Positions 6,389-19,933 of a stretch of 21,551 bases of DNA are shown in pieces. Origin of the DNA: a virus; IMG/VR virus record IMGVR_UViG_3300034062_004983, positions 1-21,551 of that record. One strand, given 5' to 3'. The translations under genes and the position numbers were made by a program. How positions within the stretch are numbered: the first letter of the stretch is position 1; the number at the start of each line of letters is the position of its first letter. The notes below the pieces were generated by a model. That model was not told the DNA's origin. It saw only the letters and a list, made by a program, of their open reading frames with translations, and did no database searches.

Positions 6389-7160
6389 TTACATCTTTAA
6401 ACGCGTCAAATACATTTACAGTTCCAAACCCACCATTTGTAAACACATCAGTTAACTTGCTCTTTGATGAAGGTCTTCCATTCACATTACGAGTTGATTT
6501 AACGGGGTTTAATTGAGTTTCCCATCTCTTGTTTTCGTAAATAGCAGCCATTTGGTCCGCAGTGTGCATAATGAATGGTAATGATGTTTTTAACCTGTCA
6601 TCGTTATTATACTTGATGTAATATTCTTTGTTATTTTCATCATATAACCCATCGGTTAATTTCATACCAATCATTTCAACTTCGGAATACTTAATTCCAA
6701 AATATTGAAGATTAAACATTGTTCTATCATTAAGATTCATCCAATGAATTTTTGGATTGGTCTTGTAAATTTTACCTTGATTTTTTACATGCCATTCAGA
6801 ATCATTTTTTATATAGTAATCCATTTCGGCAGTTCCTAACTTACCAAGGTCGTGATGGAGGGCTGTAAAGACTATCGTTTCTTTATCAATGTCCTCCATA
6901 ATCATACCAAGGTCTTGCCACATACTATAAACCTTTAAAGCATTACGAGTTACCCGAAGAACATGGTCTACATACCCACCTGGAAATGCGTTGTGGTAAT
7001 GTTCTACTGAAGATGCTGGTGTATAAATCATACGCTCTTCAAAGTGGTCATACATTTTATTAAGTGACTCTAATCGGTCACCTGTAAAAGTTTGATTGAT
7101 TAATTTACGAAACTTCTCATAGTTTTCTACAAGTTCTTCTGCGGTAAACAAATTTTCCAT
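6378..7160 (-). CDS. HD-domain metal-dependent phosphohydrolase
   Basis: 260 aa. The metal ligands of an HD domain can be traced: His66 in PGGYVDHVLRV, the His103-Asp104 pair in LHHDLGK, and Asp202 in HTADQMAAIYE. Proteins of this superfamily hydrolyse phosphate esters of nucleotides or cyclic nucleotides. Comparable HD proteins occur in other T4-like phages, where they are presumed to act on nucleotide pools or signalling nucleotides. The substrate cannot be read from sequence. It starts 7 nt after the ClpP-like stop and overlaps the next gene by 11 nt, so it is in the same transcript. Confidence 0.8.
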   Translation of the reverse strand: MENLFTAEELVENYEKFRKLINQTFTGDRLESLNKMYDHFEERMIYTPASSVEHYHNAFPGGYVDHVLRVTRNALKVYSMWQDLGMIMEDIDKETIVFTALHHDLGKLGTAEMDYYIKNDSEWHVKNQGKIYKTNPKIHWMNLNDRTMFNLQYFGIKYSEVEMIGMKLTDGLYDENNKEYYIKYNNDDRLKTSLPFIMHTADQMAAIYENKRWETQLNPVKSTRNVNGRPSSKSKLTDVFTNGGFGTVNVFDAFKDVIEE

Positions 7161-9046: not shown

Positions 9047-9952
9047 TTACAAGTGCTTCCCAAATTTAGAAATGTAGTTAAGTACTGTTAACTCTTTCAT
9101 CTTGGCTTCAATATCAATATCAAGGTCATACCCATAAGTATTAATTTCTGAATAGATGTAATCCGAGTGAGCTTGTGGTTTGGATGTAGGGTCTTCTAAT
9201 GTCTTAGATTCGGAATAGTGAACTAATGGTTTTACATCTCCCCAAGTTGACATCGCAAGTTCAAGAGCCTCTTGTTCGGTTAGTCCGCCAGTATTAAAGG
9301 TGTGGTGATGATAATCAAACACAATTGGAATACCAATACGTTCGTGAATATACATAAGGTCTTTGACTGAATACATACTACCCTTGTCATCATTCTCAAC
9401 AGTCAGTCGTGTCTGAACTGATTCTGGCAACAACTCAAAGTTTTTACAAAACCTATCCATAGCAGATTGTTTATCACCATAAACGCCATTACAATGAATG
9501 TTGATAAGATTGTATGGAGTTCGTTCTAATCCCATAAGGTCAAAGTGTTCTCCATGTATAGAGAGGTCTTTAATTGTGTTGTGAACGACTTTCTCAATAG
9601 GAGACACCAAGACATTAAATGGACCGGGATGTGATGTTATGCGTTGTCCATAGGTCTTAGCAAGCGTGCCCGCTCCTTTGAGGATATTAGAAAACTTTTG
9701 GTAGTCTGGCATTTGATGTAATTCAAACTCACTAGCCCATGGAACAAGGTCGGAAGTTACACGAAATAATTTAAAATCATTCTGATGATTCCATTTGATA
9801 ATTTCACATAAGTCGCGGGCATTTTGAACTGCAAGACTTGATGACTTTTGAATACCTTCAGTAAGAAAGGTTTTTTTTATCATAGACCGATTGGTGGTAA
9901 TTTTTTGTTTACCAAGGGTCATGTTGATACAGCAATAACCTAATTGTGTCAT
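9047..9952 (-). CDS. uvsE: UV damage endonuclease UvsE/UVDE
   Basis: 301 aa, the usual UvsE length. It opens with LGYCCINMTLG, the family's N-terminal strand. Metal-site residues of the TIM barrel follow in order: His108 (RITSHPGPF), His153 (NIHCNGVYGDK), Glu186 (LTVENDD), and Asp213 with His215-217 (VFDYHHHTF). UVDE nicks DNA 5' to pyrimidine dimers, 6-4 photoproducts and some abasic sites, starting excision repair without UvrABC. It is a stand-alone unit with its own family I promoter about 20 nt upstream. A short inverted repeat, GCACTTACAAGTGC, spans the stop codon (9043-9056). Confidence 0.92.
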   Translation of the reverse strand: MTQLGYCCINMTLGKQKITTNRSMIKKTFLTEGIQKSSSLAVQNARDLCEIIKWNHQNDFKLFRVTSDLVPWASEFELHQMPDYQKFSNILKGAGTLAKTYGQRITSHPGPFNVLVSPIEKVVHNTIKDLSIHGEHFDLMGLERTPYNLINIHCNGVYGDKQSAMDRFCKNFELLPESVQTRLTVENDDKGSMYSVKDLMYIHERIGIPIVFDYHHHTFNTGGLTEQEALELAMSTWGDVKPLVHYSESKTLEDPTSKPQAHSDYIYSEINTYGYDLDIDIEAKMKELTVLNYISKFGKHL

Positions 9953-13346: not shown

Positions 13347-14612
13347 TTAGAAAGGATTTGTAATGTCATCAGTTTCAACATTGAATAAGTTTTCATCGGA
13401 TGGTCGTTCACCTAAGAACTTTTGAATGTATTGTTTCATATAAACTCGTTCCGATTGAGCGCCACCACTTTGGTCAAACAATGGGTATATTGTAATTTCA
13501 GCAGCCTCAGCGAGTGAAAACCCATCGTAGAGAAGTGACCCAATTTCGACAGCGGTTCGAGTTGAAAGTGAATTAGATAACTTTGGAGATTCAGACATTA
13601 CTTCCGTGCGAGTCATAGAAGTAATTTCAGCAACATTCGTAAGAGTTTCAGACAATACTGAAGGATACATCATTTGAAGAAGTGTAGCCTCTTCAGCTTT
13701 AGTTAGAGTATCCATCTCTATGATAGTAAATCGGTCAAGAATAGCCCGGTCGAGAGCTCTTGTAGCGGTGTATTCGTTACCAATGTTAGCAGAAGCGATA
13801 AAAGATACACCATCAGCCACCTTAACAACCGGAGCATCAGCAGCCTCATCTAATCGTAAGTAACGCTGACCTTGGTCGAGAACTGACATCAAAATATTGT
13901 GAGCCTCTGGATGAGCACGAGTCAACTCATCTAAAACCACGACAGTGTTTGGAGTTTGAATTGCCTTAACGAATGGTGATGTATTAAACACAGTTCCTTT
14001 TTTGGTATCAAATTGAGTATTACCAATCAAGGTAGTTCGTGGGTCTTGAGTAGCTCCCAAGTTAATGATAAAGGTATTGTAACCTTCAAGAGAATTAGCA
14101 GCCGCCTTAGCAGCCATTGTTTTACCACATCCAGCGGGGCCAGTCATCATAATATTTTTACCACGAATAATATTACGAATCAGATATTTCCATTTAAGAG
14201 ATTCCATAAACAATGCTTTAGGTTTTAACCCTTCAGATTTTTCGTGGATAAAGTTAAGGACATCTTCATTCATAACAGGAGCAGCTACAGCCGTAGGAGT
14301 ATTAGATTCATATTTCAAAGCGAGAAGACCGCCATTTGGAGCGGAAAAGTTACCAACCGGCTCGGGATTGTTTTCAACTTGAATAGCCGGAACACGAGTA
14401 AACCCAAGTTGACCATCTGATAGACGACCCACTACACGAACTTTAAATCCGTATTTTTCAGGCCGTTTAGCAGCCTGGCGGGCTCGAATATTAAGGGAAG
14501 TTCCTTCATTATTCAATTGGGGAATATTAAACATAACTCCATTAGAGTCTTCAAACAAGAACAAACCATCGACCTCGACAATCTTTCCAAAAACTGTTTT
14601 TTGTGTTTTCAT
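13347..14612 (-). CDS. MoxR/CobS-like AAA+ ATPase
   Basis: 421 aa. Walker A GPAGCGKT at 158-165, Walker B VVVLDE at 224-229, sensor-1 Asn276 in ASANIGNEY, and Arg-finger candidates in ATRALDRAILDRF (283-295). The first 100 residues look like a small beta domain, plausible for substrate or partner binding. MoxR/CobS ATPases work as hexamers with a VWA-domain partner; here the CobT-like gene lies just upstream, separated by one small gene. Many large phages carry this pair annotated as cobaltochelatase, yet no cobalamin pathway gene is present, so a remodelling chaperone role is more likely. Own family I promoter. Confidence 0.85.
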   Translation of the reverse strand: MKTQKTVFGKIVEVDGLFLFEDSNGVMFNIPQLNNEGTSLNIRARQAAKRPEKYGFKVRVVGRLSDGQLGFTRVPAIQVENNPEPVGNFSAPNGGLLALKYESNTPTAVAAPVMNEDVLNFIHEKSEGLKPKALFMESLKWKYLIRNIIRGKNIMMTGPAGCGKTMAAKAAANSLEGYNTFIINLGATQDPRTTLIGNTQFDTKKGTVFNTSPFVKAIQTPNTVVVLDELTRAHPEAHNILMSVLDQGQRYLRLDEAADAPVVKVADGVSFIASANIGNEYTATRALDRAILDRFTIIEMDTLTKAEEATLLQMMYPSVLSETLTNVAEITSMTRTEVMSESPKLSNSLSTRTAVEIGSLLYDGFSLAEAAEITIYPLFDQSGGAQSERVYMKQYIQKFLGERPSDENLFNVETDDITNPF

Positions 14613-14956: not shown

Positions 14957-15012
14957 TAAAGATAAAAAACAAATGGGACTTTTCCAAATCCCATATGTTA
15001 AATAATTGTTAA
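14957..15012 (-). promoter_or_regulatory. Family I promoter for the 80-aa gene
   Basis: Minus strand: TTAACA (15012-15007), 5 nt, TTAACA (15001-14996), 7 nt, TTTG (14988-14985), exactly 20 nt, TATCTTTA (14964-14957). The distal box overlaps the stop codon of the VWA gene; a terminator hairpin fills the space between boxes and TATCTTTA. Confidence 0.78.
14965..14994 (-). terminator. Terminator after the VWA gene, nested in the next promoter
   Basis: Minus strand 9-bp stem ATGGGATTT / AAGTCCCAT (one G-U) with loop GGAA, then TTGTTTTT. The -33 TTTG of the promoter is formed by the stem end and loop. Confidence 0.75.
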
Positions 15013-17129
15013 ATTTTAACTTCAAACTTTTTGTTTAGTGTCTTAGCAAGTTCACCCATGTTTGATACATCAATGAATTCCGAATCCTTACCATACATTT
15101 GTTTAAAGGAATCTAAGCCAGAATCACCATATTCAGATTCAGTAATAAAGTAAGAAAGAATCTTGACACCAGCCCTTCTGATTTTCATGATTTGTTCAGC
15201 GGTGTGTTTTATAGCGTAGTCACCACCATAAGAAATTTCAGAGTTATCAAAGCCAGGATATCCATCCGAAAAATTAATCAAGTAGGTATCTTCGCCAGTT
15301 TTAGTTTTAACGATTTCTTTTAAAATAGCCTCATAACATAATCCCTCGGGAGTAGTTCCATCGTAGGTAATGTGTTTAAATAAGTTTTGAATTTTTGAAA
15401 ACTTATCTTTACGACTATCATAAGCAATCAACATTAATGGTTGACAATTATTACCTCCATAGTATATGCCTCGATAAGAAATAACTACATTGATATTAGC
15501 GGTCATTGAAGCAGCCTTAGCTATCGCAACGGCGGCTACTTGTGTATTATTCCATTTATAACCACCCATCGAAGAACTGGCATCAATTGAAATGTGAAGT
15601 GTAACCGGAGTCGATGTGTTAACTAAAGTTTGTTCAAAAATACTAAAGTTACCAAATCCGATTTCGTGAATCATACGACCACTTAATTTACCAGCCTTCA
15701 TTCGTGGTGTAGTTAAAACTCGTTCTTCATTTCGTGTTTTTAACTTTTTACCTAATAAAGTTCCAAGTTGAATACCCTTGGTAACATTTTCAATACCTTT
15801 ATTAACCGTCCAGCTGCTATTTGTTAACATTCCAACCAGTTTAGATTCAATAAGTTGTTTAGACAAGTTATTAATGATGTAGGTTTGAACTCCATTAGAG
15901 CCAGATTTGTCATACCAACTTTGTTGAACTCCCTTGCCGGTTATTTCAGTTTTGACATCAGCCTTATCAAGAGTATCAAGTTTGTTTTTTTCAGCTTTTG
16001 AAACAGCACGTTTTTGGATATTACCTTCTAAAAATTTATTTTGTTTTTCAATAGCAGTTTCTAACATTTTACGTTGGCGGTCTGATAGTGGTTCGTATTG
16101 ACCACCAGCCCCATTTGAATTTGGTAAACTAAATGAACCACCATTAGAATCAGATTCTTCTTCAGAGTCATCACCTTCATTAGATTTACTTGGGGAAGAT
16201 TTACCATTACCCTTGCCACTCATACCACCGCCATTGGTAGATTGGGATTCCACGTCACCACTCATTTCGGTGTTACCATTTTCTTCACCATCTTGTGAAT
16301 CGCCATCACCATCCGAAGATGATTCAGTATCATTAACAATTTTAGTATTTTTTTCAACAATCATAAGAATTTCACCGGCCACCTCAAGTGCGTCCCATGA
16401 ATTTTTGAGTCGTGAAATATTACGAAGGTCAAGAACATTCCAAATCTCACGAAGACCTGTTAAAGCGGTGAGGTCACGATTAGCGTTAGTGAGGTTGATA
16501 ATACGAAACATATAAGAGTCCCAATCTTCATTACGATATTCTTCAGATTGAAGACCTTTGTCAACAATAGAGGAGTGAAAGTATTTTTCATACATAGCCT
16601 CGTAGTAACCACGATAGCCGGGCGCTGTGGTGTAAATATGATTATCAATCCTTCGGTCCTCAACATAGTTAAGAAGAGACTTTAAATTGTTGTTGACAAT
16701 ATGAGACAATCGGTGACTTTCATCCAAACCATACTTATTCATCAAATAATTTTTGTCAATTGATGTAGGAAGATAATCATTTTGTAATTGAGTTAAAATT
16801 CCAAAATCAGTCAATGCGATGTGAGACCCTTCGTGAAGAGCCAAACCAACCACGGGGTCAAATTCTTTATCATCTAACTTAGCAGATATAACGACTGAAT
16901 TTCCATCGGTATATGAATCATCACCACGACCATTAAAGGTAACAGGAATTGACTTACCGGTTACAATGTTAACGAAGTTAGCAATTGACCTTTTATAGGC
17001 CATAAGCTTCATAAGGTCGGACGCTTTACGTTCGACACTTGTTACTTGTATACTTGAATCATCCTCATCAAAAAATATAGAGGGGTCAAGCCAGAACGAA
17101 GAATAAGATTTGTTTTTCATGTAACTCAT
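15009..17129 (-). CDS. CobT-like zincin/VWA-domain protein (AAA+ partner)
   Basis: 706 aa. N-terminal part has a zinc-peptidase motif HEGSH at 99-103 (LALHEGSHIAL) with NYVEDRRIDNH at 154-164 as likely third-ligand region. Residues 268-345 are a low-complexity acidic Ser/Gly/Asp linker, typical of CobT-type proteins. The C-terminal VWA domain has the MIDAS motif DASSSM at 516-521 and INFSDGYPG further on. It should bind Mg and engage the MoxR/CobS-like ATPase. Whether the HEGSH site is proteolytic is unknown. ATG at 17129 or 17120 (MKNKSYSS); the latter is farther from the promoter and equally possible. Confidence 0.85.
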   Translation of the reverse strand: MSYMKNKSYSSFWLDPSIFFDEDDSSIQVTSVERKASDLMKLMAYKRSIANFVNIVTGKSIPVTFNGRGDDSYTDGNSVVISAKLDDKEFDPVVGLALHEGSHIALTDFGILTQLQNDYLPTSIDKNYLMNKYGLDESHRLSHIVNNNLKSLLNYVEDRRIDNHIYTTAPGYRGYYEAMYEKYFHSSIVDKGLQSEEYRNEDWDSYMFRIINLTNANRDLTALTGLREIWNVLDLRNISRLKNSWDALEVAGEILMIVEKNTKIVNDTESSSDGDGDSQDGEENGNTEMSGDVESQSTNGGGMSGKGNGKSSPSKSNEGDDSEEESDSNGGSFSLPNSNGAGGQYEPLSDRQRKMLETAIEKQNKFLEGNIQKRAVSKAEKNKLDTLDKADVKTEITGKGVQQSWYDKSGSNGVQTYIINNLSKQLIESKLVGMLTNSSWTVNKGIENVTKGIQLGTLLGKKLKTRNEERVLTTPRMKAGKLSGRMIHEIGFGNFSIFEQTLVNTSTPVTLHISIDASSSMGGYKWNNTQVAAVAIAKAASMTANINVVISYRGIYYGGNNCQPLMLIAYDSRKDKFSKIQNLFKHITYDGTTPEGLCYEAILKEIVKTKTGEDTYLINFSDGYPGFDNSEISYGGDYAIKHTAEQIMKIRRAGVKILSYFITESEYGDSGLDSFKQMYGKDSEFIDVSNMGELAKTLNKKFEVKI

Positions 17130-17430: not shown

Positions 17431-17646
17431 CTAATCACGATTAGCATCGACTCCATACTTAATGTATTTGTACCAGAGCCGTTCGTGAAGATAATATAAT
17501 ATCATTTTAGTTAATAATTCAACACCACCAATAGCTAATCCAACTTTAAGATTACCACTTATTAAATAGGAAAGTAAAATAGTATCAATGGTGCCTATAA
17601 TTCTCCAAGTAATAGTTTTTAAAATATGTCTTTTATAACTTACCAT
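17431..17646 (-). CDS. DUF2061 membrane protein
   Basis: 71 aa. Matches DUF2061: RHILKTITWRIIGTIDTILL, then GGVELLTKMILYYLHERLW. Two hydrophobic segments (about 15-30 and 34-52) indicate a small two-pass membrane protein. In bacteria DUF2061 proteins are often encoded near or fused to sulfate-assimilation proteins such as CysC, which fits the APS-kinase-like gene two genes upstream. Function unknown. The start overlaps the nucleotidyltransferase stop by 14 nt, and a strong terminator follows, making it the operon's last gene. Confidence 0.85.
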   Translation of the reverse strand: MVSYKRHILKTITWRIIGTIDTILLSYLISGNLKVGLAIGGVELLTKMILYYLHERLWYKYIKYGVDANRD

Positions 17647-17983
17647 CTTCTCTCATTTGTTCACGAATTTTTGTGGCTGATATTTTTTCAATATGAGTTG
17701 GTGGAATATGTTCAATTATACGATATCCAACACCTCTACCATAATTAACGGAATCTATATCAGGTATAATCATCAATTTAATTTTACCTTTTTTTATATA
17801 CTCATAATGTAATTTTGATAGATTTTTATAAACCTGCTCAGCGCTCCAAGGATTATCTTTATCAGGTTGAACATCTCGAATAGCAAGTAATACACGATTA
17901 CCTTGATTTAGTTGTTGGTCAATTAACCATTGATGACCATCATGCCAAGGTTGCCATCTACCTATGTATAGTGAATATTTCAT
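17633..17983 (-). CDS. Cytidylyltransferase-like nucleotidyltransferase
   Basis: 116 aa. Nucleotide-binding HxGH motif: IGRWQPWHDGH, with His14 and His17. The second family motif ISATKIREQM lies at 101-110 (usual form ISxTxIR). Members transfer AMP or CMP from NTP to a phosphorylated acceptor (NMN, phosphopantetheine, glycerol-phosphate, or sulfate in ATP sulfurylase). It is short compared with most, so it is a minimal domain. Next to an APS-kinase-like gene it could activate sulfate or a sugar; the acceptor cannot be read. 26-nt overlap with the kinase gene. Confidence 0.8.
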   Translation of the reverse strand: MKYSLYIGRWQPWHDGHQWLIDQQLNQGNRVLLAIRDVQPDKDNPWSAEQVYKNLSKLHYEYIKKGKIKLMIIPDIDSVNYGRGVGYRIIEHIPPTHIEKISATKIREQMREDGKL

Positions 17984-18392
17984 TGAGTGATTGTAATACT
18001 GATTTGTTTGTGGTATCTAATTGTTGGTCACGAGAATCAATCTCAAACTCTTTTACAAAAAAATCTTCTCGACCTCTACTTTCGGTCGTATGGACATAGT
18101 AAAATTTTGAGTCTAAATCTCTAAGTTCATTACGAGTTTCGTTGTAGGGAGCTACTACTGAAATAACAACATCCCATCCCTTGTGACTCAAGTAACGGGC
18201 AATATTATTTACATTGCGGAGATTTTTTATTCTACCTTCTTTAGAATAATCTTTATTATCAAAGATGTTTCGTAATTCATCCCCATCAATATGTTCAACC
18301 ATACGATGGTTATTTAATTCAAGATGTTCTTGAAGTGCTTTAGCCAAGGTAGTTTTACCAGAGCCAGGTTGACCATAAAACCAATATATCAT
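17958..18392 (-). CDS. APS-kinase-like (CysC-like) P-loop kinase
   Basis: 144 aa, shorter than the roughly 200 of CysC. P-loop GQPGSGKT at 7-14, IDGDELR at 35-41 (CysC has DGDNxR), RYLSHKGWDVVISVVAPYNE at 66-85 with following Arg residues, as in APS kinases (S..APY...R). The C-terminal lid segment of CysC is reduced or diverged, so the substrate may not be adenylylsulfate; a related small-molecule kinase is possible. ATGA overlap with the 92-aa gene upstream and 26-nt overlap with the nucleotidyltransferase: a four-gene operon. Confidence 0.78.
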   Translation of the reverse strand: MIYWFYGQPGSGKTTLAKALQEHLELNNHRMVEHIDGDELRNIFDNKDYSKEGRIKNLRNVNNIARYLSHKGWDVVISVVAPYNETRNELRDLDSKFYYVHTTESRGREDFFVKEFEIDSRDQQLDTTNKSVLQSLNEIFTIHR

Positions 18393-18667
18393 TTTTGTAA
18401 AAATTTTAATATGTCTTCTTTAACTTGATTATTTCGTTGAGCGTTCCACATGGTATCCCATTCGGATTGAAGATATTCTCGATGATGGTCGTATAGCTCC
18501 GTTCCTCTATCAGTATATGCGATAATACCTTTTAACACAGACCTTACTTTATTTTTGTGAGTTTTACTATACGAAGAATTATCCACAAGTTCACATAATA
18601 GCAATATTGTTTCGCTTGTAGATTTAGTAGACCATAAGTGTTCTACATATTCCTTTTTACTATTCAT
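18389..18667 (-). CDS. Unknown helical protein, first gene of the CysC-like operon
   Basis: 92 aa, predicted all helix, with several Trp/Tyr/His (YVEHLWSTKSTSETILLLCE, YDHHREYLQSEWDTMW). No family recognised. Its stop overlaps the kinase start as ATGA. I could not see a clear family I or II promoter in the 40 nt between it and the tRNA gene upstream, so the operon may be read through from the RNA cluster. Confidence 0.65.
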   Translation of the reverse strand: MNSKKEYVEHLWSTKSTSETILLLCELVDNSSYSKTHKNKVRSVLKGIIAYTDRGTELYDHHREYLQSEWDTMWNAQRNNQVKEDILKFLQK

Positions 18668-18708
18668 TGGTATGTCTTATTACCCAATTAGATTTAAATA
18701 TAAAGTTG

Positions 18709-18800
18709 TAGTCAGAATAGGAATCGAACCTATAACCTTTGTCTTTTGGTTCCGACTAATCGGATTACTCACCAACACGCTACCATTGCGCCATCTGACT
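18709..18800 (-). tRNA. tRNA with aberrant anticodon region, isotype undetermined
   Basis: 92 nt. Acceptor AGTCAGA/TCTGACT, discriminator A, D-arm GCGC-AATGGTA-GCGT and T-arm ATAGG-TTCGATT-CCTAT are all canonical. The 42 nt between D and T arms do not form a 5-bp/7-nt anticodon arm with U33. The best fold is TTGGT/ACCAA enclosing a second stem TCCGA/TCGGA with loop TTAG. CCA is not encoded. It could be a pseudo-tRNA, a tRNA with an insertion, or a class II tRNA I mis-fold. Confidence 0.65.
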
Positions 18801-18806
18801 ATGGTA

Positions 18807-18948
18807 GTAGAGCTTGTCCTTTAGGAGGAACACACCTACTCTACCTGGTGGGAGTCTTTTTATGTGAAAAGTCCACAACCCACAGGACCATCCGTGAGAC
18901 TAGCTTCCTCCGATGGTAGTTATCGTCCTAGTGCTAGTTCAGATAACT
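18807..18948 (-). ncRNA. Structured RNA of four contiguous hairpins between two tRNA genes
   Basis: No ORF. Four stems fill the gap end to end: 18918-18948 (AGTTATC/GATAACT), 18887-18917 (ACCATC/GATGGT), 18844-18886 (CCTG-TGGG with CCCA-C-CAGG) and 18807-18844 (GTAGAG/CTCTAC). Loops are complementary: ACTAGC in the first and GCTAGT in the second (6 nt); GGAGGAA in the second and TTCCTCC in the fourth (7 nt). GC content is well above its surroundings. Strand is inferred from neighbours. Function unknown. Confidence 0.6.
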
Positions 18949-18952
18949 GCTG

Positions 18953-19025
18953 AGCGAAAGACTGGATTCGAACCAGCGACCCCCACCTTGGCAAGGTGAT
19001 GCTCTACCAACTGAGCTACTTTCGC
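18953..19025 (-). tRNA. tRNA-Gly(GCC)
   Basis: 73 nt. Acceptor GCGAAAG/CTTTCGC, D-arm GCTCAGTTGGTAGAGC, anticodon loop TTGCCAA (anticodon GCC), T-arm CTGG-TTCGAAT-CCAG, discriminator U as expected for glycine. No encoded CCA. Confidence 0.96.
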
Positions 19026-19126
19026 AAATTTAGGGCTCCCCATATCCCTAAGTGTCATCTAAAGTTTTTTCCTCTAAGAGGTTGCCGGTTGATGATTATC
19101 CTTTAACCTAAATGGGTTTTAATATT

Positions 19127-19253
19127 AAAGAGAGGCTTTTCGGGTCTTTCAGGGTTTCTGATTGAGTGCAATGAGTGAGCCCTTCCTACTATAAACCCTT
19201 TTTTGGAAATTAATACACTCTACCTCTCAATTACAGCTTTACTGCCTCTCCTT
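19127..19253 (-). ncRNA. Candidate junction-forming RNA between tRNA-Thr and tRNA-Gly
   Basis: The 19026-19254 gap has no credible ORF. A 10-bp helix AAGGAGAGGC/GCCTCTCTTT (one G-U valid on minus) joins 19244-19253 to 19127-19136. It encloses hairpins CAG-TAAAG-CTG, TAAT/ATTA (19211-19232) and GGGTTT/AAACCC (19152-19198). Further toward tRNA-Gly lie CCTCTTAGAGG (19071-19081) and TTAGGG/CCCTAA (19030-19051). Strand inferred; function unknown. Confidence 0.45.
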
Positions 19254-19559: not shown

Positions 19560-19617
19560 ACGAAAACTTTATATTAAATTGTTAAACATAAAACGACAAA
19601 GGACTATCCTTTGTTTG

Positions 19618-19689
19618 AGCGGAGGGTTGGAGCCGCCCCAACACCTTCTATCTGGATGATAGATGTCTTTCTCTCAAGACTTCCTCCGC
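19618..19689 (-). ncRNA. tRNA-Gly-shaped RNA lacking canonical loops (copy 1)
   Basis: 72 nt, exact tRNA layout: acceptor GCGGAGG/CCTCCGC, AA linker, D-stem GTCT/AGAC with loop TGAGAGAA, one base, anticodon stem TCTAT/ATAGA with loop CATCCAG, variable AGGT, T-stem GTTGG/CCAAC with loop GGCGGCT, discriminator U. The anticodon position reads TCC (Gly). Missing: U8, D-loop GG, U33, TTC of the T-loop. The stem C32-G38 could also close, leaving ATCCA. Paralogous to 19770-19841. Confidence 0.75.
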
Positions 19690-19695
19690 AAGTTT

Positions 19696-19766
19696 AGTAA
19701 GGATATCCGGTGTCTCTAACCATCATGGTATTGCAGTCGGTTTTATTACTGACTTCAATCCTTACT
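19696..19766 (-). ncRNA. 71-nt structured RNA between the two tRNA-like genes
   Basis: A 9-bp end helix, AGTAAGGAT/ATCCTTACT, closes a 71-nt element. Inside are a hairpin TTG-A-AGTC / GACT-G-CAA and a short ACCAT/ATGGT palindrome. The size equals a tRNA but the arms do not make a cloverleaf. There are 6 nt to the 5' end of copy 1 and 3 nt from the 3' end of copy 2, so processing from a common transcript is likely. Confidence 0.5.
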
Positions 19767-19769
19767 ATG

Positions 19770-19841
19770 AGCGGAAGGTTGGAACTGCCCCAACACCTCT
19801 TATCTGGATGATAAGCGACTTTCTTTTAAGTCTTCTCCCGC
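19770..19841 (-). ncRNA. tRNA-Gly-shaped RNA lacking canonical loops (copy 2)
   Basis: 72 nt, same layout as 19618-19689: acceptor GCGGGAG/CTTCCGC, AA, D-stem GACT/AGTC with loop TAAAAGAA, G, anticodon stem CTTAT/ATAAG with loop CATCCAG, AGGT, T-stem GTTGG/CCAAC with loop GGCAGTT, discriminator U. Differences from copy 1 in stems are compensatory (one D-stem pair, two anticodon-stem pairs, one acceptor pair, plus A-U to G-U). A family II promoter ends 11 nt upstream. Confidence 0.75.
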
Positions 19842-19852
19842 GATTGTTAATA

Positions 19853-19884
19853 CAAATATACAAAATAAATTTTATATATCCAAA
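19853..19884 (-). promoter_or_regulatory. Family II promoter for the tRNA-like RNA cluster
   Basis: Minus strand TTTG (19884-19881), exactly 20 nt, TATATTTG (19860-19853), 11 nt ahead of the 5' end of tRNA-like copy 2. An 18-bp AT palindrome (19883-19900) abuts the -33. Confidence 0.78.
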
Positions 19885-19891
19885 TATTTTT

Positions 19892-19917
19892 AAAAATATT
19901 CCGACCTAGCTCGGAAT
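19892..19917 (-). terminator. Terminator after tRNA-Ser
   Basis: Minus strand ATTCCGA/TCGGAAT 7-bp stem with 6-nt loop GCTAGG, followed by ATTTTT, 16 nt past the 3' end of tRNA-Ser and just ahead of the next promoter. Confidence 0.7.
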
Positions 19918-19933
19918 AACACATCGGATGATG

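Follow-up and report, generated by a model that had tools for sequence, protein, structure and literature searches.

We describe here a family of tRNA-Gly-like RNAs, two members of which are encoded in a 21.5-kb IMG/VR virus record (IMGVR_UViG_3300034062_004983, positions 1 to 21,551; this whole stretch is referred to as the window). The two RNAs, RNA A (19770..19841) and RNA B (19618..19689), lie on the minus strand and are each 72 nt in length. Within the collections searched, sequence comparison places the family in viruses only; the carriers are large, uncultured, and predicted to infect Bacteroidota. We propose, with a probability of roughly 40%, that these RNAs derive from tRNA-Gly(UCC) and act as non-decoding decoys, recognized by glycyl-tRNA synthetase (GlyRS), for host proteins that act on tRNA-Gly or Gly-tRNA.

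The sequence of RNA A is GCGGGAG AA GACT TAAAAGAA AGTC G CTTAT CATCCAG ATAAG AGGT GTTGG GGCAGTT CCAAC CTTCCGC T, and that of RNA B is GCGGAGG AA GTCT TGAGAGAA AGAC A TCTAT CATCCAG ATAGA AGGT GTTGG GGCGGCT CCAAC CCTCCGC T. In both, 21 of 21 pairs are formed and the spacing 7-2-4/8/4-1-5/7/5-4-5/7/5-7-1 is exact; their location and spacing agree with a preliminary description of this DNA. By chance, given the mononucleotide frequencies, the expected number of such 21-pair descriptors in the window is about 8e-5. The fold z-scores were -3.3 (RNA A) and -4.1 (RNA B), and the covariance model of the family (R1), of which both RNAs are members, gave 95.4 bits (E 1e-22) and 88.5 bits, respectively. 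The sequence differences between A and B are compensatory. Although the cloverleaf and the spacing are like those of the Rfam tRNA family (RF00005), neither RNA was reported by Rfam at the gathering score or, on a 2-kb stretch, even at E 10, and ARAGORN did not report them either. Since tRNA annotation programs miss these RNAs, surveys of phage tRNAs will have overlooked them.

Homologues were searched for by degenerate pattern scans of IMG/VR and with R1. They were found in 43 of the 50 IMG/VR records behind the loci, in one to three copies each and usually in two; altogether, the RNA is known from about 45 IMG/VR contigs. The loci L012, L016, L017, L020, L023, L025, and L032 were chance pattern matches, in which R1 had no match. 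Family members scored 58.9-98.9 bits with R1, compared with 33-35 bits for orthodox tRNA-Gly. Since most of the scored members had been used in building R1, the evidence free of this circularity comes from the covariation and from an independent marker set, described below. In the alignment of 49 sequences, 99.5% of the cells are paired, and 209 two-sided changes were counted against a mean of 68 after shuffling (none of 500 shuffles reached the observed number). The pairing collapses once the partners are slid. Base pairs 4-7 vary across the family, and 28 columns are invariant. Judging from this covariation, we conclude that selection on the cloverleaf is strong. The preliminary description had regarded the fold as selected because of the compensatory changes between the copies, and had named a lack of covarying homologues as an outcome that would speak against its view; the covariance-model and pattern searches yielded a covarying family. 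The low similarity to tRNA models might be explained if these RNAs were decaying tRNA pseudogenes. However, the pairing, the two-sided changes, and the invariant columns rule this explanation out, and its probability is practically negligible.

Positions 32 and 38 always form a pair (C-G, once U-A), which leaves a 5-nt anticodon loop, N33 W34 C35 C36 A37. Position 33 is A in 27, T in 19, G in one, and C in one of the sequences, with A33 in both window copies, and position 34 is U or A (A34 in 9 of the 48 sequences tallied), whereas C35, C36, and A37 do not change. The pairs G1-C72, C2-G71, and G3-C70 as well as C35, C36, and U73 are invariant in the 49 sequences. These are the elements of the published identity set of bacterial GlyRS, and the Gly consensus (G10-Y25):G45 (PMC9976931) is also kept throughout, G10 and G45 being invariant. 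Thus, the fixed C35, C36, and A37, the free position 33, the U or A at position 34, and the invariant GlyRS set fit recognition by GlyRS and not decoding. The preliminary description is supported on both counts, having listed the GlyRS identity elements as retained and having considered these RNAs to be without bases required in decoding. In the sampled Bacteroidota, dimeric GlyRS was present in 61 of 61 and was the only type.

A highly modified tRNA-Gly(UCC) that still decodes GGA and GGG codons would fit the NCC at positions 34-36, the perfect cloverleaf, the GlyRS set, and the location inside tRNA clusters. GGA and GGG account for 112 of the 296 Gly codons among the 4981 codons counted in window genes. 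Furthermore, L028:5445-5516 (plus strand) shares the family sequence and its A8/U14 swap, yet has a TTC T loop, a D-loop GG, an anticodon loop of 8 nt, and an encoded CCA; by its sequence, we regard it as an intermediate form that links the family to tRNA-Gly(UCC). However, the unconserved U33, the occurrence of A34, and the closure of the loop by the 32-38 pair make a decoding role improbable. In addition, orthodox tRNA-Gly(UCC) coexists with the tRNA-Gly-like RNA in L219, L223, and L045. Therefore, the tRNA-Gly-like RNA is not a substitute for a missing isoacceptor. As a separate observation, an apparently orthodox tRNA-Gly with the anticodon ACC occurs at L236:935-1006 (plus strand). This isoacceptor is reported to be absent universally from the tRNAs used in decoding, which also speaks against decoding by the family members with A34.

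The canonical core contacts U8-A14 and G18-U55 and, with one exception, U54-A58 are not found in the family, in which G18, T54, T55, and A58 are replaced. In tRNA numbering, A8 and U14 are invariant, which is a swap of the usual U8/A14, and the invariant A18 faces G55. G54, G55, and G58 are present in all sequences but the middle copy of L047, which has U54, G55, and A58. Since G19 and C56 are invariant (49/49), the G19-C56 elbow pair is probably kept. The top non-stem pair in a mutual-information scan was that of columns 15 and 58 (tRNA positions 15 and 59), which is A-U in 36, G-C in 4, U-A in 4, and another combination in 5 of the 49 sequences; G-C and G-U occur there in two more divergent members identified subsequently. 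The sequences TNARAGAA in the D-loop and GGCRG in the T-loop are conserved. We conclude from these patterns that the tertiary core is rewired and not lost, the particular base contacts being predictions. The preliminary description had noted the absence of the D-loop GG and the T-loop TTC. This is correct for G18, T54, and T55, which are replaced, but G19 and C56 are kept. Its further statement that the standard tertiary core is missing has to be revised, because the core covaries and the bases at positions 8 and 14 have been exchanged.

The exact pattern gave no match in 84,980 prokaryote species, and RNA A gave none by blastn in 50,697 records of cultured phages. R1 found nothing in sets of 10 and 396 Bacteroidota genomes, the latter with strict filters, in a heuristic first look made without a positive control. 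The hosts are predicted to be Bacteroidota from the promoter type and from a pattern related to the orthodox tRNA-Gly(GCC), for which all genome matches among those listed are in this phylum.

The marker set was obtained with a 706-aa vWA-like protein that is common to 23 of the 25 records tested, at 44-73% identity. With this protein alone, independently of the RNA, 80 loci were fetched. The tRNA-Gly-like RNA was detected in 34 of them, within the stretch examined of each, and the most distant of the relatives listed (L234-L257) include none of these 34. L226, the marker of which is 71% identical, represents an empty site: tRNA-Ser and tRNA-Gly are separated by 34 nt at the position that the RNA pair occupies in relatives. 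In L011, L021, L048, and L053, the tRNA-Gly-like RNA occurs without any tRNA gene within the 8-13 kb examined.

In the window, a promoter-like sequence, RNA A, a spacer RNA (R2), RNA B, and a terminator-like hairpin follow one another. The promoter-like sequence TTTG-N20-TATATTTG (19853..19884, minus strand; direct reading) is located 11 nt upstream of RNA A, and the same motif also precedes the first copy in many of the homologous loci. We take it to be of the Bacteroidota type, from the consensus as generally known. The hairpin that closes the A-R2-B unit is composed of ACAAAGGA-TAG-TCCTTTGT followed by CGTTTTAT (19596..19614, minus strand). Another terminator-like hairpin (19897..19918, minus strand) is located upstream and sets the unit apart from tRNA-Ser.

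R2 (19690..19769, minus strand) has a 10-bp closing stem and a short hairpin, and RNA B begins immediately after its 3' end. The hairpin loop contains (G)ATAARNCCG, and ACCGG is present on the 3' side; the invariant CCG and CGG could form a pseudoknot. In an alignment of 12 sequences, the closing stem is 97% paired and 7 of its 10 pairs are doubly changed. R2 is not in Rfam, and by this alignment we regard it as a second new structured, covarying RNA. Matches of the R2 model occur only in loci that carry the tRNA-Gly-like RNA, namely in 17 of 34 marker loci with the RNA versus 0 of 46 without it, although related loci are not independent. Nearly all are directly 5' of a tRNA-Gly-like RNA, and in L197/L198 R2 precedes an orthodox tRNA. 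Further R2 sites are L049:12716-12804 and L028:5564-5645. The linked R2 and the conserved D-loop and T-loop sequences would fit a structural or regulatory RNA that acts with R2 on another target and whose tRNA shape chiefly serves its processing and stability (RNase P, CCA enzyme). We consider such a role rather improbable, because it does not explain why C35, C36, and U73 are invariant while positions 33 and 34 drift.

Recognition by GlyRS together with the loss of decoding leads to three main readings, namely a decoy, a GlyRS trap or glycine sink, and a glycine donor for a non-ribosomal reaction. We favor the decoy, an idea raised in the preliminary description, on two indirect grounds: the element is an accessory one of patchy distribution, and Gly-tRNA appears from the literature to be a repeated target of toxins. 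Most of the GNAT toxins tested are specific for Gly-tRNA. TacT reads U73 and G71 (PMC9976931), which occur together in 49 of 49 family sequences. FaRel2 targets tRNA-Gly and tRNA-Thr, and its reported determinants are G1-C72, C2-G71, G4-C69, and Pu5-Py68. As a decoy, the unit would work as follows. Transcription from the unit's own promoter would yield an A-R2-B transcript, from which the tRNA-processing enzymes of the host would release small RNAs. Host dimeric GlyRS would recognize, and probably glycylate, A and B, whose missing U33 and closed 5-nt anticodon loop would prevent decoding. The two RNAs would accumulate during infection and draw off host proteins that act on tRNA-Gly or Gly-tRNA. 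Among these could be defence toxins directed at tRNA, for instance Gly-tRNA acetylases, enzymes that pyrophosphorylate tRNA, or nucleases. The tRNA-Gly used by viral translation would thereby be spared. We hold a little more tentatively the fuller proposal of a virus-only tRNA-shaped class with a rewired elbow, charged or bound by GlyRS, that would be a decoy against Gly-tRNA-targeting immunity and form a dedicated unit with a new pseudoknotted RNA.

Several points weigh against the decoy. The FaRel2 determinant G4-C69 is not conserved (G-C in 39 and A-U in 9 of the 49 sequences), whereas pairs 1, 2, and 5 agree with the determinants. The charging and expression of A and B are deduced from their sequence, and the hosts are known only to the phylum, a Gly-tRNA-targeting defence in them being presumed from the literature. 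The conserved letters of the D- and T-loops point to another specific binder, one not included in the decoy model, and the model leaves the two copies and the role of R2 unexplained. A and B might alternatively be bound or charged by host GlyRS and remain unused in elongation, so that host translation is slowed or glycine is diverted during takeover. The invariant GlyRS identity set and the unit's own promoter and terminator are consistent with such a trap. It is unlikely, however, as the phage itself requires glycine, given the Gly codons counted above, and its orthodox tRNA-Gly(GCC) would compete for GlyRS.

The genes of the window include those for baseplate, a ClpP-like maturation protease, a UvdE-type UV endonuclease (9047-9952, minus strand; Pfam E 7e-60), the vWA-like protein with an HEGSH motif, and a MoxR-type AAA ATPase (15009-17129 and 13347-14612, respectively, minus strand). 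The vWA-like gene is followed by the MoxR-type ATPase gene, and the two are conserved throughout the viral clade of the window. In the tRNA cluster, ARAGORN called six tRNAs other than A and B. One is the orthodox tRNA-Gly(GCC) that the preliminary description had placed there (18952..19025, minus strand; Rfam 70.2 bits); it served for comparison and is outside the A-R2-B unit. A tRNA with a long variable arm at 18708-18800 (minus strand), which has the 8-nt anticodon loop UGAGUAAU and could not be assigned by ARAGORN, is possibly a tRNA-Tyr(GUA) without U33. Two other parts of the array, 18801-18945 and 19030-19250, did not differ from shuffled sequences by folding better. Adjacent APS-kinase-like and nucleotidyltransferase-like genes are next to the array (17633-18392, minus strand), in relatives as well.

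A protein of ~90 aa is also encoded near the array (18389-18667, minus strand). It is predicted to have five helices (AlphaFold2 pLDDT 89), with invariant W12, N30, G47, H61-H62, W70, and Q77, and its family occurs in 23 loci in two arrangements. No significant Foldseek match and no family match were obtained, and the aligned sequences diverge too much to be of use in a scan of viruses. As an obligate partner of the RNA it was rejected, since among the 80 marker loci 19 have both the protein and the RNA, 11 have the protein without the RNA, and 15 have the RNA without the protein. Of the protein families encoded near the marker gene, none closely tracks the tRNA-Gly-like RNA. In L018 (~6540-6930, minus strand), a long non-coding stretch between tRNA-Pro and the small-protein gene contains the motif ATGACCGAAyAATCC...GGGGATAAGGTACA twice.

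No published description of these viral RNAs was found in the literature searched, the coverage of which was partial. To our knowledge, a family that is confined to viruses and combines a rewired core and a companion RNA with an anticodon loop closed to 5 nt has not been known. What is already known is the diversion of a tRNA-Gly from translation in staphylococci, where a non-proteinogenic tRNA-Gly serves the pentaglycine of peptidoglycan (Giannouli 2009, via PMC4052509, PMC8007984). As far as these sources describe it, this tRNA-Gly(UCC) resembles the viral RNAs in its UCC triplet, in having altered D and T loops, and in its retained GlyRS identity, and it is thought to be excluded from translation. 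It is, however, cellular, is used by Fem transferases, carries UU or CU at G18G19 where the viral RNAs have AG with G19 kept, and has the T-stem pairs A49-U65/A51-U63, which weaken EF-Tu binding. The viral RNAs differ in being viral only, in the unconserved U33 and the 5-nt anticodon loop, in the swapped positions 8 and 14, in the 15-59 pair, and in the partner RNA R2.

By analogy with the Staphylococcus aureus tRNA, which is charged and poorly used by EF-Tu, A and B might donate glycine to a non-ribosomal reaction, a route that the preliminary description had suggested. We find no specific support for it and consider it quite improbable. Neither FemAB above the cut-off nor Acetyltransf_6 was found in any of 24 carrier records, many of which are fragments, and FemAB is present in just 11 of 61 sampled Bacteroidota. 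The weak-EF-Tu pairs are absent, G49-C65 and U51-A63 being invariant, and no nearby protein family tracks the RNA, as mentioned above.

The pseudo-tRNA tRNA-Other of Bacillus cereus is likewise tRNA-like, not used in translation, and linked to mobile DNA. According to the part of its description considered here (PMC3399842), it is bacterial and lies within a larger regulatory RNA, and no glycine identity set is mentioned there. tRNA-Pyl and tRNA-Sec (PMC7609411) are precedents for the loss of GG and TPsiC and for a change of U8, and tRNA-Sec also for contact of the D loop with base 59. However, both of them decode and are not tRNA-Gly, and their base changes differ from the A8/U14 and 15-59 arrangement. 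The viral family offers a natural experiment in which the GlyRS identity set is separated from decoding, and it suggests that rebuilding the tRNA elbow from swapped and new tertiary pairs is possible.

The phage T5 also provides tRNA-shaped RNAs, and its tRNAs rescue translation from the tRNA-targeting defences Retron and PARIS (PMC11559606). The window likewise carries A and B beside orthodox tRNAs. The T5 tRNAs are working isoacceptors, whereas RNAs of the A and B type lack decoding features and could, therefore, serve only as decoys against such defences. If they are decoys, they would represent a new viral answer to tRNA-targeting immunity, in which a dummy substrate is supplied instead of a replacement tRNA.
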